From: Setaria digitata
Taxonomy: Eukaryota; Nematoda; Chromadorea; Rhabditida; Setariidae
Assembly: GCA_003640385.1 (NCBI GenBank)
Contig: RCAB01000063.1
Span: 1-64,000 of the forward strand
Direction: 5' to 3'
Length of the DNA: 64,000 bases
Position numbers and translations under genes: made by a program. Below the pieces are notes generated by a model, which saw nothing but the letters and a program-made list of their open reading frames with translations, was not told where the DNA came from and made no database searches. Below are positions 4,901-60,879 of the stretch, in pieces. Numbering within the stretch: position 1 is the first letter of the stretch; each line of letters opens with the position of its first letter.

Positions 4901-6713
4901 AAAAAACAGTAGCATTATGTCAGTTTACATATGATGTGTTTATATAGAAGTTTTGAAATTTTTATGGATTTATTCGTATAAAACAATCTATCAGTTTCAG
5001 TATTCTTCTTTCATGCATATGTTTTTTTTTTTTTTTTTTTTGAGGTTTACAATATCAAGACGAAAAAAATGGAACCGTTATTGAACTGTCTATCAGATGC
5101 TGAGGCTCGAGAAGTAAGTCAATAATTTTCTCTTTACTCTTAATCAACTTTTTAAATTTCAAAGTATATAGAATGCTTTAAAACTAATATTTTAAACTAA
5201 TATTCAAAGTTCTTCCAGACTGATAATATGATGGAACGTATTGTGCGAACAATTGAACATGGAAAAAAGTATAATTTGCGGACAATGATCGATGCTGAAC
5301 AGACGTATTTTCAACCAGCCATTTCGAGGCTAGCAATGGCAATGATGAGGAAGTCAGATGCAGTTGTAATTAATAATCATTTTAGGCTTCCAAAGGATTA
5401 GGCATTTTATGGTCTATGGAAGGAATAACAAATTACATTTAATTTGAATATATTTTAATCTTTGCAAGCCCTAAAGAATTAGTAGTGATTTCAGCTGTCG
5501 CGGTGTTCATAAAGAAGAGCTTTGTTTTCCAGATTTATATACAGTGTACATTTCTGTCCTACCTCCAACTTATCTAATTTGAGGTACAACAAGGAACAGG
5601 CCTTAGTGCTCAGTACATATCAAGCATATTTGAAAAGCTGCTTAAGAGATATTGAACTGGATTTGCATTTGGCTAGGCGGGAAGGGTTCAGTTTTGGATG
5701 TAAAGTTGTTCGTGGTGCATATATGGAACAGGAAAGAAAACGTGCTGAGGCGCTGAGTTATGAAGATCCAATTAATCCGAACATTGAAGTAAGGAATTGA
5801 AAATCTTGGACGGCTGTTTGATAGAAAAACATCCAAAACTGAAGGAGGAGTTATGGATATGGTGATTATGACTTTTTTCAAATAAAAACGACAACATTCA
5901 TTTTGTTTAGGCAACAGCAGATATGTACGGACAAGTGATGCAAAGAATAATAAGGGAATATCAAGAAAGAGGTCATGGGAGCATATTGGTGATGGCTGCG
6001 ACACACAATGAGAAAGCCATTAAAGATGTCGTTGAGATGATGCGTGAGGCTAAAATATTACCTTCTAGTGAAAGCGTCTGTTTTGCGCAGCTTTACGGAA
6101 TGTGTGATCAGGTTAGATTTATACCAATCAGAAAAAAATCTCCTAACAATGTTATTTTATTATTTTATGCTACCCGTACTGCAGGCATTGTTTTATGAAC
6201 GTTACCATTACAAGTCAAAGGAGTTGAATGATAAAACTGTTTACATTTTATGACTGTGGTAAGTTCCCGTGGCATTGTGGACGTAAGGAAATACTTTGTT
6301 CGTGGTGTCCTGGAAAGCTGAGCTGCAGAAACCTATGTAATTTCAAACACAAATGACGAATGAATTACTAATATAGGGGAAATTGAGCTTTAGTGGACTT
6401 GAAGTTATAGAATTCAAGAAGTCCAAGAACTTATTAGGATATTCCAGGTTTCGTATTCACTTGGAAATGCTGGTTATTCGGTGTACAAATATGTACCGTA
6501 TGGGCCGATTGATAAAGTTTTGCCTTACCTTTCTCGAAGAGCACAAGAAAATGCTTCCGTTTTGGGCAAGATTAGAAGAGTAAGTTTACGGTTATACTGA
6601 ATTTTGCAATCTTTATCTGCAAACTCTGAAGCGAGATATTTTTCCAGGAGGTTGGCTTAATGTCTCAAGAATTAATTCGAAGAACTTACACTCTTAATGG
6701 AAGATTCGGTTAA
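1990..6713 (+). CDS. PRODH: Proline dehydrogenase, mitochondrial
   Basis: Oxidises L-proline to pyrroline-5-carboxylate with FAD on the inner mitochondrial membrane, the first step of proline breakdown. Fourteen exons in consistent phase: 1990-2066, 2260-2371, 2630-2815, 3114-3251, 3484-3587, 3910-4038, 4205-4337, 4492-4629, 5045-5113, 5219-5352, 5584-5788, 5911-6111, 6448-6579, 6648-6713, giving 607 residues, the usual animal length. The N-terminus is Arg/Ser/Leu-rich like a mitochondrial presequence. Catalytic-barrel motifs seen: KVVRGAYM near residue 447, [17 protein letters not shown], and YKYVPYGP near 555 followed by YLSRRAQEN. Exon 8 encodes an EF-hand-like loop (residues 312-323, D-F-D-E-N-G-F-V-D). 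An acceptor-like AG sits 7 bases before the ATG, suggesting trans-splicing. The gene is tail to tail with the glycine C-acetyltransferase gene. Family identity is very secure; the exon 3/4 junction is the least certain. Confidence 0.93.
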
Positions 6714-7341: not shown

Positions 7342-10300
7342 TCAGATTACGTGAAGTTTTTTTCCAATCTTTTTGAATCCATTGATGCAGTGTTCAACAT
7401 GTTGTTGTGTGTGAGCCGCAGAAATCTGTATTTTTTTTTGTAGTGAAACAAAAAATATTTCCTGTAGAGATTGAACTTTTAAGATCTTCAAGTATATTAC
7501 AAGAGCTCGTAAGATTTTAATGTATAATTGTAAGCAATCCTGCTGAATTTTAGCAGTGACAGATCCCAAAAGGTACGCTATGTTAGTAGTAATGAAAATA
7601 ATTGATTGGAATGGAAGTTAATATTTACCTTCTCCACATCTGATTTAAAAACATTTTATAACAATTCTGATTGCTAAAATTCCACAATAAATTTTGGAGA
7701 ATACCTGTACGCGGATCCTGGCCTTGCCTTTAGGTACCACAGGGTAGCTAAATCCAATCACATATATCCCTTCTTTAAGCATTTCATCAGCAAATGTAGA
7801 AGCTAGCCTGCTCGTAAATTATTAATTGAAAAATTGAAAACTTCTTTTTTCTCTAGCTCCTGTATAAGAAGAAATTGTAGCATTTACCATATGAGTAATA
7901 GAAAAAATGTGAAGAATTAAAATACCTGGCATCACCAAGAAACACAGGACAGATCGGATGATCCAAATTGCCCATTACTTTAAAGCCAGCATCAGTGAGC
8001 GATTTACGGAAATGCATTATATTCGATTTCAGGGAGCTTGTGAATTCCGACGAACTAGTCAGCAAATCCAATACCTAAATAGCGAAAAAAATTCAGTACT
8101 TAATTGCTTATGAAGTATAATATATGCAAGTATCCGAAAGCAAATACCGAAGGTGATAATACAAAAGCCTAATTATTAAGTAGAACTAAAATGTTATTTT
8201 AGTGTAAGTAAACTATGATAAAAATTCGAAATGTAAAGAATTCATCAGTGAATTCAACAATGCATATCTGTAATAGAAAAAATTTCAAAAAAAAAGTTCT
8301 GCTTTTTACAGATGCACCTCGATCCATTTGATTTGTAATAGAGCAGAAATGTTTTTTTTTTTCTTGCAATTAATTGTCCCTTTAACTGTTAGGAAGGAAA
8401 CATATTTTTAAAAATGCAAAGTATCGTCGTTGTAATTTGATTACCTTGATGGAAGAGCCAACAACAGATGGAGCTAGTGAATTCGAGAACAAATACGGTC
8501 GAGAGCGCTGTCTTAAAAGATCAATAAGTGCTTTAGGTCCTGTAGTATAACCACCCATTGTACCCCCTAAGGCTTTTCCGAGTGTGGAATTAATTACATC
8601 AATTCGTCCTTGAATGCCAAGCTGTTCTTCTGTACCACGACCAGTTGGTCCAAAAAAGCCTGAAACAAAATCTAATTAATTTCTGATCAGCCGTAGAATT
8701 TTCCACTTTTTTAGATCATCGAGCTGTTTGTAACATATATTATCGGCAAGATCAGCAATTAACAATATATCAGTTTGTTTTTTTTTAAATCACAAATTCA
8801 TTTTTTACTTGACAGCATATAATATTATTATTTTATAATATAATATTATTAGTTTTGTTATTATTTATTATTATTTATTGTTATTATTTATTATTATTGT
8901 TAACTATATAATTATTAATCTGACTATTATTATTATATAGCTACCGGTTGCATGACATTCATCGACAAAAACAAGTGCATTATATCGGTCGGCAAGATCA
9001 CATATTTCCTCCAGTGGTGCTACGTCACCATCCATACTGAAAACGCCATCGGTGGCAATTACTCGTCTCCTGCTACCTTCAAAACATATTATTAACATTT
9101 AAACGGGAATCTGAATTTCAGAAAAAGAAAATGAACGTCTGAATCCTGAAGAAACATGTTAGCAAAACAATTGTGATGGCTTATTTCAAACATTACTGAT
9201 TTTCATTTTTCCTAAAGAGGAAAATGTTTAGAAAATTTTATCAGTTTCGATAAACATAACAAAAATATGAATGGCTACACACTATATATATATATACTAA
9301 CTAGCTTACTACTACTAGCTTTTTGCCAACAGCAAGGATCAATAATGTCAACTGGCACAAAAAGTTAGGTAAATAATAATAAATACTCTGAGTTTCTTTT
9401 AGAATTTTCTCCAAATCATTCAAATCAACGTGTTTATAGCGATAACGTTTCGCTTTACAAAGCCGAATGCCATCAATAATAGAAGCATGATTAAGCTCAT
9501 CCGAAATGACCGCATCCTGATCATCTATAAATAATTCTTACTAATTTTCAACTTTCAAAATTGAAATCAATAAATATATGTTGTGATGTAGGTGAAAATC
9601 TGACTGAAACATTTAATTAAAAGTACTATAGGGCAATTTATGGCTACCAGGATACTATACAGCGCGTGCTTTTTTTTGAATGCTAACAGCGAGTGATTTC
9701 TTAATTGCAAAGCTAAGCAAGAATAAATAAATAAGTAGATAAATAGGTTAAACAAAAATGACTAATTAAAAGAAGAGAGCAAATAAGCTTTCGATTTCTA
9801 GCATAAATTGATTAGTTTAAAATGATTTAGATTTATTTCGATTTTTTTTTTATCTTTACTTGTAAGCACTTCAAATAATCCTCCATTTGCATCAAAGCAG
9901 GATGTGTACAGGATAGCATCTTCCCGACCATGAAATTTAGCAAGCTTTTGTTCCAAAGTTCGATGTAGATCCTGTGTTCCACAAATGAATCTCACGGAGC
10001 TCATCCCAGCACCATGAGTATTCAGTGCTTCTTGTCCAGCTTTGATCACGTCAGGATGACTGCTCAATCCTGTAAAAATTTGATCTGAAGAGAACAGAAG
10101 AGAAAAAAAGACATCGCAGATCCTGCGAATGAATTTAATAACCGAAATTCGAGATGCAATTCGAGATCAAGTATCTAGAATTAAGTTCTTGATAAACAAC
10201 TTAGTGTCAAATTTATAATCAATTATTTATAATTGCAATAACCTCTATAATCTCTATACTGAATTCCATTAAATTCGCAGATATTTAAATTTTTTTAAAA

Positions 10301-13233: not shown

Positions 13234-16200
13234 TTAATCTTTGCTAAGCGAAGAAAGAGAAGCAAATATTAAAAATAACAGGAATGTACCAAGCAGATCG
13301 CCAAGAGCAGTTAAATATGGTATCGCAGCATAATCTGGATCCACCTGTAGTGACCACAGAAATGCAACGAGCAACTGACATACATACAGTAATAACAAAA
13401 CCTGAAAATTCACTATCTTCAGTCTCAACTCTTCTAGCACAAAACTTAACTTCCTTCTTATATTGCTTTTAAAATAACTGAATAAATACCCCTAAAATAA
13501 GTTTAGACTTTTAATGTGAATTAAGCATCCTGTTCTCTTTTTTGGCAAATAAAAATGTGTAGCATCCTACTTGATAGTAGTTAGGTTGACCAGCTAGTAG
13601 AAGCGAAATAACCAATAATCGCAGAATCAAATTAGCCCTCATTATGTTAGAAAAACGAATCTCTCAACCAACCTGTACTAGTGCTGCACAAATATAAATA
13701 CTAGTGAAAAGTAGTCCGGACGGTAGACTACTGCTCTTGTGCAAAATCTGTATCACCCAATTGAAAAAGATATGACAAGGAACGACAAACAACAGTAACA
13801 CACGGGCTGAATGTGTATCCGTATCTAAAAATCAATTTTTACAAACCCTGTTCGAAATTTCAGCAGAAGTAATGAGCGTAAACACTCACAGGAACAACAT
13901 CAGAAAACTTCCTGATGTGTTAAGACTGATTAATTTCCAAATTTGTGATGAAGTACACTGTCACATCTAAAGAAGCTTGGGAAAAGGTTAATTTGAAAAA
14001 GAACAGAAGTCATAAAAACAGATTACCATTAGAAAAGAATGCTCGTTTAAAGCTAAGATGACTTGCTAAATTCCTTTTTAAACATCCAAATGAAAAAGAT
14101 TGGTGATAGAACGTAGCAAGGCGACTAGCTTGAATAGCTGCAAGATTACCACCAACTCCTGCAAAAGTACGAGTCCTTAAAAAAAAGCAGCTTTTTAAGC
14201 TCAACTTCGATCCTGTATTTTCCATGTAATACTGTTAAGAATAGAATGGAAGAAAAAACAGATAGATAGAAAAATAAAAAATTAGGTAAAATAGAAGACG
14301 CTGCTCGCGTTCTGTACAAGGAATATAGAAAGGGGAAGGAAAACAAATGAATTGGTGATAAGCTGCATGTAAGAGCTTACCATTTATAACAGGTTGAAAG
14401 ACAGCAATTTTTGGAAATCGTTTGATAGCACTTTCCAGTATAAAACCGCCAGCACTACTTATCAACATGCTCAGTATAATGGGTAACCAACCATTTTCCA
14501 GTACATCAGTAGTACCTTCATCCTTTCGCGCCACATGAGCCCAAAATGGTGCTACCATCATAAATGTTACAATAACACCAACATTGAGCCACGTTTCATC
14601 AAGATGTGCTTGAAGAAATACCGAGCCTACAATAGTTCTTCAGTGAAAGCTTGGAAAAGAATTAAAATAGGAGAAAATTAATAGCAAATTAAAGCCACCA
14701 ATAAGCAAGATTAATTAAAATAAAAAGATATCCGCGCTTTATCTATCAAGTAATCTTTATTTTTAAAATATTTTTGTCATCTTCCCCACCTTATTCTTTT
14801 CACATGTATGATTAAATGTAATCTTCACAAAAAAATACATAAAAATTTTACGAACCAAACATCCGACTACCACCACCTAGTTGTACATCCTACCCTCCAC
14901 AAGAAAGGAAAAATTGAAATCCTCTTGAAGAAAAAGCTTCCAAATCCAAATTCCTGCCACAATTTAGATATAAGAAACAGATAGTAAGCAAATTCATTCC
15001 GAAAAATAATATTCCTTAGTGCTATTAAATTCGAGTTGACAGTTACCTAGCAGAGAGAGAGTTCCTAGGGTTGTAAGATCACCCAAAGAGGCGGCAATTG
15101 GTGTTGCAACATTGTCAGGATTTATAAGAAAATTTCGCGAAATTAAGACGACACTGATCATCACCGTACTAAGTATGAATGATGCTAAAGATGCTGTTGT
15201 TAGACTGCTTGCACATAATAAAGCGGCATGAGACCAATCAATCTAAAAAAATTACATTTACTGAACAGAAAGCAAAGTAACCGTTTACATTAATTTTTAA
15301 TCAACAAAGGTTCACGAGCATCTCATATCACTCGATTGATATTACGAATATTAACAAGCTATGATTAAAAACTATTTAATTAAGTAAAAATAAATGTATA
15401 TCTTGTTCTTATCCAAGGAAAGAAAAATGGGTTCTGAGAAATAATAGCCGCAACACAAATAAACTGAAGCTAAACATAAATAATCTCCAAATACTACCTA
15501 TCTTCATTTTTGTTCTTTTTCAATTTTATCTTGTTTCTACTTTGCAAGTGAATATAAAAATGGCATATGTTTTATCCATATCCATTTTCCGTCGCAATAC
15601 ATTCGATGGATATGAGTGGGAATAAATAACTAAACTACCAAATGAACCATTTTTTTTTCCAAATATTTTAATCAATTCCACTTTCTTTGTAGGATTGAAT
15701 GGTAATTTCTCGAAAAAAAAAAAAAAAAAAAAAAAATACATGTCATTTCCAAACTTAACAGAATCACCTGCCCTTTTGGTATCCATGCAAGTATAATAGC
15801 AAAACCAGAAGCAAGAAAGGCAACAACAATGGCTTGCACTTGAATGAGGGCTAAGTTCGCAAAAATAACCATTCGCAGACTTTCACTTGAATCCATTCGC
15901 CCCATGTTGGCCTGAAACAGCGATTTCAAAAGATATTTACTTGGCTTACGTACATAAATAACTTAAAAGTGAAACTCTGACAAACGAAATAAACGCACTT
16001 GAACTTACTGTGGAAATATTTTAATCTCAAAGCTTAACCGCAACAGGAAACATCAAATAAAATAAAATAAAATAAAAAAAAGAAAAAAGAAACAGCAACT
16101 GGAAAAAAAGAGGATGTGCGGGGTATTTTCAGCATGCGATTCTCCATAATGCTCTGAGAATGACGAAAGGATTTACAAACGTACCAACGTGGATAATCTA

Positions 16201-18751: not shown

Positions 18752-20062
18752 ATGGGACAAGAACGGAGCATATTTTCGAGGAAGTCACGAAATACAATTG
18801 AAATGTTATCCATGACGTGGGTGCAATTTGTTAAGCTTATTTGCGAGCTGAATGACAGGTTAATTAATCAGTTGGGGATTATGCAAAACTCATAAGTCAT
18901 CAGCAGTTTTGCTACGTTTTATTACGTTTCCCTCCATTAACGGTGCATCTCCTTTCTGGAACGCTCAAATAGGACATCCAACTGGATACGACAGTTTTGC
19001 GAGGATCAGTATTCAAGGAAAAGATCGGGTTTCTGGAAATTCTTATCCAAAAGAAAAGGTATTTAATTTAAAGATTTTCAGATGTGCTAAATTTGTTGAT
19101 CCAGATGGAAGGTATCTGTTGTTTGCTATTAAAAAAGGCAGTGCTAATACGTTGCTTTGGAAAATGACTGTTAGGATTTGCACACTGAAAGTAAGCATCG
19201 CTTTATCTATCTATCTTTATTCTTTTGATAAGTCAGGAAATTAGATGCAAATTTATCATACTCATATGCGCAAGTTGAGTTGGATTTTAGCCAGGCATCA
19301 CGAGTTGGTCCATTATTTTGCAGCGGGAACACCCTGATGGATTGAAATTCAAATTTTGTGAAGAAAGAAACAATCTAAACATTATCTTTTTTTTTTTAAT
19401 TCTAATCTTTCTGTGCGGTTGTTTGAAATTTAATTTAGTTTGAAATTAGTTTGAAATTCGATAATAGATTTAGATTAATGCGAGGTCGGCAGATTCGTAT
19501 CGTGTATTTACATTTGGGCAATTTCTGAGCCTTCAGAAATCGTTGTGTTATCTGCTCAGAGATGTAGCTGGTGAAACAGATGGAGCAATACTTCAAGAAC
19601 GGGTTTTTGATACATACATAGACAGGTCAGAAAGCACCTATCCATTTTTTTTTTTTTTCAGATAGTGTTGTTTGTACTATGATTGCAAGTAATTTTAAGT
19701 ATACATAGGAGGAGTGATTTTGGCAGTAAGCTCTAATTTTTTGATATCTAATACTGTCAAGAATAGCTTCTCATTGTTTTTACATCATTGTCTTTAGGGC
19801 TCTTACCACAAGTGAATGCATAATATGTATGGAACGTGAACCAGATGTAGTACTGCCCTGTGTGCATTCTTTCTGCTCGGCATGTATTGAACAGTGGAAA
19901 GCAATGGAGAAGGATTGGTGTCCACTTTGTCATCATCCTTTACAACTTGATGGGAGTGACTCTTGGGTAATTCCAGATGTTATTGAAAGTGGTGAATTAA
20001 GAAATTATTTAATGTCTTTAACGAAATCTGATGGAACCAAGAGCTCAAAGTGTTTGCGATAA
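18752..20062 (+). CDS. RNF141: RNF141-like RING-finger protein
   Basis: Probable E3 ubiquitin ligase. Four exons: 18752-18858, 19082-19190, 19474-19625, 19798-20062, giving 210 residues; vertebrate RNF141 is about 230. The C3HC4 RING is complete: Cys130, Cys133, Cys144, His146, Cys149, Cys152, Cys164, Cys167. Family-specific features include MGQ at the N-terminus (a possible N-myristoylation site), an ELND motif in exon 1 and the SWVIPD segment after the RING. An acceptor-like tttttag lies 4 bases before the ATG. The start is supported by that acceptor and the conserved MGQ. Substrates are unknown from sequence. Confidence 0.88.
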
Positions 20063-58617: not shown

Positions 58618-59796
58618 TTATCTCGCCGTGTGTTTATTTCCCGCACCATTTGTTGATGGTGAAAAGATTTGTAGGCATGTGCGAAATTTTCTGTTACGGA
58701 AACAATTCTTGCTGCAAAAAGGAAATTAATTGAATCGTTTCATTTAAGGGAATATTGATTAGCATAAAATGTTTTCGAACAAATTTAAAAATTCAAATAT
58801 TTATAAATCATAAATGAGATTACTAATTTTTTTTTTTTTTAAAATATATCTAAAATGGATCAGTATTTGATAAAATGATAAATAATTGCATATTGCTCGA
58901 AACAATGAATTATCAGAACGAAATGTCGAACAACAAACAGCAAAAGCTTTTTTCAAATAACTATTAGCCCAAAAGTGAAAACTACAAATTCATCTATTTG
59001 AAATGGTAGAAAATGAACTAGCAAGCTAAATCCTTTGATCTTTCTAATTCATTTTCTTGCTGAAATAAAATGAAAATTGAAATACAAACCGACATTCGGC
59101 ACGCAAACTATTCTCCTCATATGAAAACATTTCATGGCAAAGTTCACAAACTCGATCCATAACAGCATGTAACGATTGATGCCGATAAATTCCACAATTT
59201 GGATCAATTTCTTCCCAATTCTTATCAGCTGATCGCTTTAGCAGATCGTTTAAATGCAAATCATTTACCATACTCTGCAGTGAACTAACTAACTAACTAA
59301 GGCAATAAACGAATCGCTCAAGTGTCATTCATTGCTACCAGATTTAGTCTTAGTCTTGCTAATGAATTTAGTCTTAAATCTTTTTACCGGATCTAACTAA
59401 TTTCAGAGCTCATAATATAAGTAAAAATTTTGAAGATATACCTAAAATAATGAGATTAGTTTACTCTCTTAATATAAAAAAGTATAATGAAAATTTACCA
59501 TTTTTCAACACAAAATAGGATAAATTAGAACAAACAAAAAATGATTACTTCAAACTATGTGAAGATTTTTCTGCGTTATTTCACATTTAAAAGTTTCTTA
59601 AAATTGAAAGTAATATCTGATATATAATATATACCTCATTCATTTTATTTCGCTGATATGTTTGTTGTATAAAACTCCTTACTGGCATAACCAAATGTAA
59701 TGATGTGAATATTATGAATCCTAGCAGTACTCGTTTACTATTTTGTTGAATTTCGGATTTCACTGAACCCATTTGTTGCCCGAAAATGATAAACAT
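58618..59796 (-). CDS. CHH/ITP-superfamily neuropeptide precursor
   Basis: Secreted peptide-hormone precursor of the crustacean hyperglycaemic hormone / ion transport peptide type. Three exons, 5' to 3': 59796-59635, 59274-59090, 58711-58618, giving 146 residues. Residues about 22-40 are a hydrophobic signal segment (VLLGFIIFTSLHLV) after a polar n-region; Met9 could be the true start. A dibasic KR at 67-68 should release the peptide beginning SADKNWEEIDPNCGIY. Cysteines at 81, 97, 100, 115, 119 and 128 give spacings of 15, 2, 14, 3 and 8, the family pattern (arthropod members usually have 12 in the third gap). DRVCELC and CRKNCF are family-like. The last intron splits the Arg codon directly after the fourth cysteine, the site used in arthropod ITP genes. 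An aatttcag acceptor lies 3 bases before the ATG. No C-terminal amidation signal is seen (it ends HTAR). Confidence 0.83.
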
Positions 59797-60879
59797 TTTC
59801 TGAAATTGTTTTTATCAAAATTTAGGTTTCATATTTTTCAGCAATTAAGATAAGTCTAAAAAGCAACAAATGACATTGATGAATTAAGAAAAATACAACA
59901 ATTATGATTAGGTGAAATTGCTATGAAACAGATTTATACAATGAATAAACTTATGAAGCAGTAAGAATCACATTAAATTCTACAATAAATTGCCAAATGG
60001 CTCTTTACATAATTAAAATGGAAAGAGAGCGTTGTTGAGATAAGTTATAATGAGTATGATAAAATGTTATACAAAGGTTGCAATGACAAGTTAGTCGCAT
60101 GCTTTTCGTCACAAGGAACATTTGCTAAACCATTCTTAATCCTAAAATTTCGAGGATTTTTCCACTTCAAATTTGGTAAAAGCAGTTCCACTTTAAAAAT
60201 ATAAATTCAGCAATTGCTTGCGTGAAGATTTCCTGAGGACATCAGCGTTGGCAGTTTATTTTCTGCCGGACAAATTCCAGCCTTGGCGAATTCAAAATGG
60301 CAATCACAGGCTTACATTCAAACTTTTATAGTCCGTTACAATGACATTTAAAAAAAAAAACCATTATGTCCAGATGTACTTCGTCGGTTCGATGATATTT
60401 AAATGAAGTACAAGAATTAAAGCGTAATGAAAAGGCTAAGCGTGGGCTGAGGTTTAAAATTTTTTGAGTAAGAAAATGTGCGAGGGAAGAGGAAAAAAAT
60501 ATTTGGGAATTGTTTTAAAGAAAAAAATGAATTCAATTTTTGAAAAAATTCGTTGAACAGCAGTGAAAAGGAAAAAAAAAAAAGCAAATGATGAAGAAGA
60601 ATAAGGCAAAATTGGACCCATTTATAATTAATATGAGTATTATAATATGCATTTAATTTTGATTCAAATGATAAGGAAAAATTGTGAATTGACTTTTTTT
60701 TTGAAACTTATTTAAAGTAATGACAAGTTTTGTTTAAATTAACAAGAATTCAAATCCCACTATTCATTTTCAATGTATCATTTATTCTATCAGAAAATTA
60801 ATTTTTCTTCTTTTCGATTTTATTAATTAGCAACAAAGACTCTTTATAGTTAGTACTATATATGAATATATTTAATATT

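Follow-up and report, generated by a model that had tools for sequence, protein, structure and literature searches.

Three short reading frames on the minus strand of a Setaria digitata contig raise the question of whether they are the exons of a peptide hormone gene and, if so, of which kind. The DNA analyzed here is a stretch of 64,000 nucleotides (contig RCAB01000063.1, positions 1 to 64,000 of the forward strand), which we call the window. Joined in frame, the three exons (59796-59635, 59274-59090 and 58711-58618) encode a 146-residue protein, and the gene is almost certainly the filarial orthologue of a crustacean hyperglycemic hormone/ion transport peptide (CHH/ITP) neurohormone gene. 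The joined protein matches the CHH profile PF01147 over residues 86-132 (41.6 bits, where the cut-off is 25; E 1.2e-10) and the solved crustacean CHH 5b5i in sequence (E 1.3e-06), with weaker solved-structure matches to MIH (E 0.0059) and 5xs1 (E 0.012). Two further Pfam rows (E 0.024 and 0.034) lay under their own cut-offs, and two BLM helicase chains among the structure matches (E 0.054 and 0.19) were taken as chance. The gene also carries the hallmark of the CHH family, a phase-2 intron after Cys4, which in the account of Montagne et al, 2010 (PMC2841656) is shared by all CHH genes then known other than Caenorhabditis ITP2 and that of Trichinella. A sequence-only reading of the window had proposed a CHH/ITP superfamily precursor here and named a search with the Pfam crustacean neurohormone family as its check; the profile score, the match to 5b5i, and the diagnostic intron in both placement and phase all bear the proposal out.

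A protein search with the joined sequence returned nine proteins at E ≤ 1. The Setaria digitata database protein A0A915PZC5 (P0001) is identical to ours at 146/146 residues; because of this identity, the PF01147 score and the Cys4 intron, we assign the gene as an orthologue of the Brugia-type ITP-like peptide. Other matches, in this search and among relatives, came from Brugia, Onchocerca, Loa, Thelazia, Dracunculus and Gongylonema, and more distantly from Plectus. The window gene is thus an ordinary orthologue, one more member of a family already published for filariae. Its features are:

59800..59805, minus strand: TTTCAG, adjoining the start codon on its upstream side, read directly
59635..59796, minus strand: exon 1, residues 1-54, with the putative signal segment; identical to P0001
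59686..59730, minus strand: residues 23-37, the hydrophobic core of the putative signal segment by Kyte-Doolittle scan
59275..59634, minus strand: intron 1, 360 bp, phase 0
59090..59274, minus strand: exon 2, coding for the KR and for Cys1 to Cys4; own-genome match E 1.4e-38
59233..59238, minus strand: residues 67-68, a dibasic KR where a convertase is predicted to cut
58712..59089, minus strand: intron 2, 378 bp, phase 2, interrupting the codon that follows Cys4
58618..58711, minus strand: exon 3, with cysteines 5 and 6, the C-terminal tail and the stop codon

The splice donors read GAG|GTATAT and TGTCG|GTTTGT and the acceptors CTGCAG|AG and TTTGCAG|CA, with intron 2 splitting an arginine codon (exon 2 ends TGT CG, exon 3 starts C AAG). 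G+C content is 0.32-0.39 in the exons versus 0.24-0.25 in the introns and 0.26-0.27 in the flanks. The six cysteines of the precursor are spaced 15-2-14-3-8, and 78 residues (69-146) lie downstream of the KR; the core is followed by a short C-terminal tail, and the frame ends without an amidation signal. Coordinates, both junctions, frame, length, cysteine gaps and KR position all agree with the sequence-only reading. A structure model, with 47 of 72 proteins chosen by hand as input, predicts a helix at residues 17-36, over the candidate signal segment, and the TTTCAG before the start codon is a possible trans-splice or upstream-intron acceptor.

The gene shares with arthropod CHH/ITP/MIH (PF01147; 5b5i, 1j0t) its six cysteines, the phase-2 intron after Cys4, and a hydrophobic leader and KR ahead of the mature part. 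It differs in lacking a terminal amidation signal and an alternative last exon: a pattern scan for three residues followed by C-x8-C, from intron 2 to 55500 (3.6 kb after exon 2), found the known exon only, although such a scan cannot exclude others. The third cysteine gap also differs, with 14 residues in Setaria and 12 in the aligned prawn CHH 5b5i. Our profile search gave 72 proteins at E ≤ 1, the Setaria protein counted in, and every organism named among them is a nematode, so that nematode members are not few, contrary to the sequence-only reading. The full cysteine signature is present in 52 of the 72, 51 of them spaced 15-2-14-3-8 and one 17-2-14-3-8; in this count, which leaves out the Caenorhabditis members, the third gap is 14 residues in 52/52. 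The two extra residues relative to the prawn hormone are a trait of these nematode proteins rather than a peculiarity of the Setaria gene. The remaining 20 proteins gave no pattern match, and several are visibly short or mis-spliced models. Among public orthologue models, P0003 (Onchocerca), P0005 (Thelazia) and P0007 (Gongylonema) seem mis-spliced at the Cys4 intron, with the last two cysteines lost or displaced. Misleading automatic names are attached to nematode CHH-type proteins P0001, P0005, P0006, P0007, P0060, P0066 and P0080: FLZ-type (P0001, “FLZ-type domain-containing protein”), CHHC U11-48K-type, Zf-Tim10_DDP, Nudix hydrolase, Protein quiver, IMS_C and Saposin B-type.

This kind of gene has been known since 2010 for Brugia, and the parts worth following are a second CHH gene and the conserved KR. 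With the protein as query, the animal's own genome (75.6 Mb, 976 contigs) yielded, besides the window gene, a match at G000:C73:47063-47188, where 42 residues align with 50% identity (E 5.7e-10). The PF01147 profile gave no match in the same genome, a silence that is uninformative since the controls were also found in 0/14 cases. We call the second locus L004; its gene reads:

L004 1393-1619 and 1763-1835, plus strand, on G000:C73: exons of the second CHH gene

Joined, these exons encode 99 residues with gaps of 15-2-14-3-8 and a phase-2 intron as in the window gene, and the protein scores 35.9 bits against PF01147. It has no KR and ends in PMIPYG. Relatives with the full signature come from Onchocerca flexuosa (81% identity), Wuchereria (83%) and Thelazia (80%), and all four proteins, that of Setaria included, have a terminal glycine (PYG or PHG), which may be an amidation signal. 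P0030 and P0033, the relatives from Toxocara and Ascaris, do not end in glycine. The Setaria protein itself is not among 24 database hits at E ≤ 0.001, and hence seems to be unannotated in the database searched. A query of a third ascaridid subfamily (P0031 type) recovered only the two known genes from the Setaria genome, whose assembly may be incomplete, and a query with P0033 gave the same outcome.

In a tree of 45 hand-chosen rows, in which many forks are weak and 14 of 42 inner branches are starred, the L004 protein groups with its three relatives, P0030 and P0033 (98/96), apart from the window gene. The latter sits with Brugia and Loa at 100/99, and a wider group that adds Dracunculus, Anisakis, Gnathostoma, Heterorhabditis and Auanema has weaker support (88/80). 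Forcing three window-type and four L004-type members into one clade costs 23.4 log-likelihood units, with an approximately unbiased test value (p-AU) of 0.0008 that is not to be taken literally, since the 24 rows were hand-picked from 86 and the group was defined with the 45-row tree already in view. The separate grouping of the two genes and the cost of the constraint point to a duplication older than the filariae. Two CHH genes in Setaria contrast with the single gene that Montagne et al, 2010 (PMC2841656) describe for nematodes outside Caenorhabditis.

We counted the KR in the 81 homologues with a recognizable Cys1 (4 of 85 were skipped), and found one 5 to 13 residues before Cys1 in 18. 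The shortened protein P0072 entered through a separate pattern made for it. Among the 13 proteins with the lead-in W..(L/I/W)(D/N)P, a motif picked after the sequences had been seen, the KR is present in 12, lying 11-12 residues before Cys1; the exception is one Steinernema protein. Plectus and Soboliphyme have a KR six residues ahead of Cys1, and Heterorhabditis and Auanema lack it although they group with the window gene in the tree. The 2010 scenario has two origins of dibasic sites, in arthropods and in Caenorhabditis (PMC2841656). With Plectus and Soboliphyme carrying the site too, KR processing would not be a separate Caenorhabditis invention; the distribution suggests that the KR is older in nematodes and has been lost at times, and also allows repeated gain.

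We consider it moderately likely that filariae and their relatives have at least two ancient CHH-type hormones, a KR-cleaved window type and an L004 type without KR, for which the glycine ending of the four members whose core is complete, filarial and thelaziid, suggests amidation; that the two types parted before ascaridids and filariae diverged; and that KR processing is older within nematodes than Caenorhabditis. If true, this would require revision of the published family history. The strongest competing explanation, which we judge improbable, is that the KR stays uncut and the hormone is what remains after signal peptidase has acted, some 100 residues. It would fit the 102-residue Brugia peptide listed by Montagne et al, 2010, that paper's restriction of dibasic sites to arthropods and Caenorhabditis (PMC2841656), and the 63 of 81 homologues that have no KR in the counted interval. 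However, the KR is kept in nearly all lead-in proteins while the adjoining propeptide varies, and the 78-residue product of cleavage falls within the family range of 72 to 80-plus (PMC7560641).

With the KR taken as cleaved, the precursor would enter the secretory pathway through its hydrophobic signal segment and form three disulphides, 1-5, 2-4 and 3-6, a pattern taken from the literature (PMC8541221). A prohormone convertase would then cut after KR68 to leave the 78-residue mature peptide, with a calculated mass of about 9.15 kDa before disulphides form, which neurosecretory cells would release as a hormone. By analogy with Drosophila ITPa, the receptor would most plausibly be a membrane guanylate cyclase signaling through cyclic GMP: Drosophila ITPa is reported to activate Gyc76C, and ITP genes to occur in nematodes among other protostomes (PMC12611267), which makes this the best guess. 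The guess is tentative, since Bombyx ITPa, by the same report, activates G-protein-coupled receptors (PMC12611267). Targets might be water and ion balance, metabolism or moulting, and a specific role in water balance or moulting is a tentative suggestion, possible but doubtful; the 2010 paper states that nothing is known of function in nematodes (PMC2841656).

That the peptide is instead secreted to act outside the worm, as arthropod venom peptides derived from CHH do, is very improbable: the family occurs in many nematodes of differing habits, including Plectus, Ditylenchus and Steinernema, and the CHH precursor Pej-SGP-I-Gly is, by its published account, also without the last helix. Open frames brought together by chance, or a pseudogene in decay, can be set aside given the database identity and the profile score above its cut-off, the intact frame, the consensus splice sites, and a Brugia protein 74% identical over 97% of the length.

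That Brugia malayi protein (Bm17906, P0002) is an orthologous precursor with equal cysteine gaps that shares the KR and the NWEEIDPNC lead-in with the Setaria protein, whose C-terminal tail is longer; judged by its length, P0002 is probably the Brugia peptide of the 2010 figure. Montagne et al, 2010 deduced ITP-like peptides for Caenorhabditis, Brugia malayi and Trichinella, with C. elegans ITP1 (ZC168.2) and ITP2 (C05E11.6) likewise described as nematode CHH-family genes (PMC2841656). A literature search joining “crustacean hyperglycemic hormone” with “Brugia malayi” found that paper alone (PMC2841656), and one for ITP in parasitic nematodes had no title on nematode hormones among its two hits. 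In a 2022 survey of neuropeptide-like proteins of parasitic nematodes (PMC8764417), a word search of the main text found none of ITP, CHH, ion transport or hyperglycemic. Our analysis gives a mislabelled filarial hormone gene its correct name, and the suggestion of two distinct CHH-type hormones in filariae provides a concrete ligand pair for testing ITP control of water balance or moulting in nematodes.

The gene's surroundings had been called gene-poor, which we tested loosely: none of ten hand-picked open frames between 41 and 62 kb had a Pfam match (E ≤ 0.001). No tRNA, and no Rfam family at the gathering threshold, was found in the window. Among other hand-picked window frames, 6 of 19 had a Pfam match, all six between 5 and 20.1 kb. 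By these matches, four stretches of the window are apparent exons of known protein types:

5513-6195, plus strand: proline dehydrogenase
8385-10166, minus strand: class I/II aminotransferase
14997-15242, minus strand: MgtE-type cation transporter
19745-20059, plus strand: RING-finger protein
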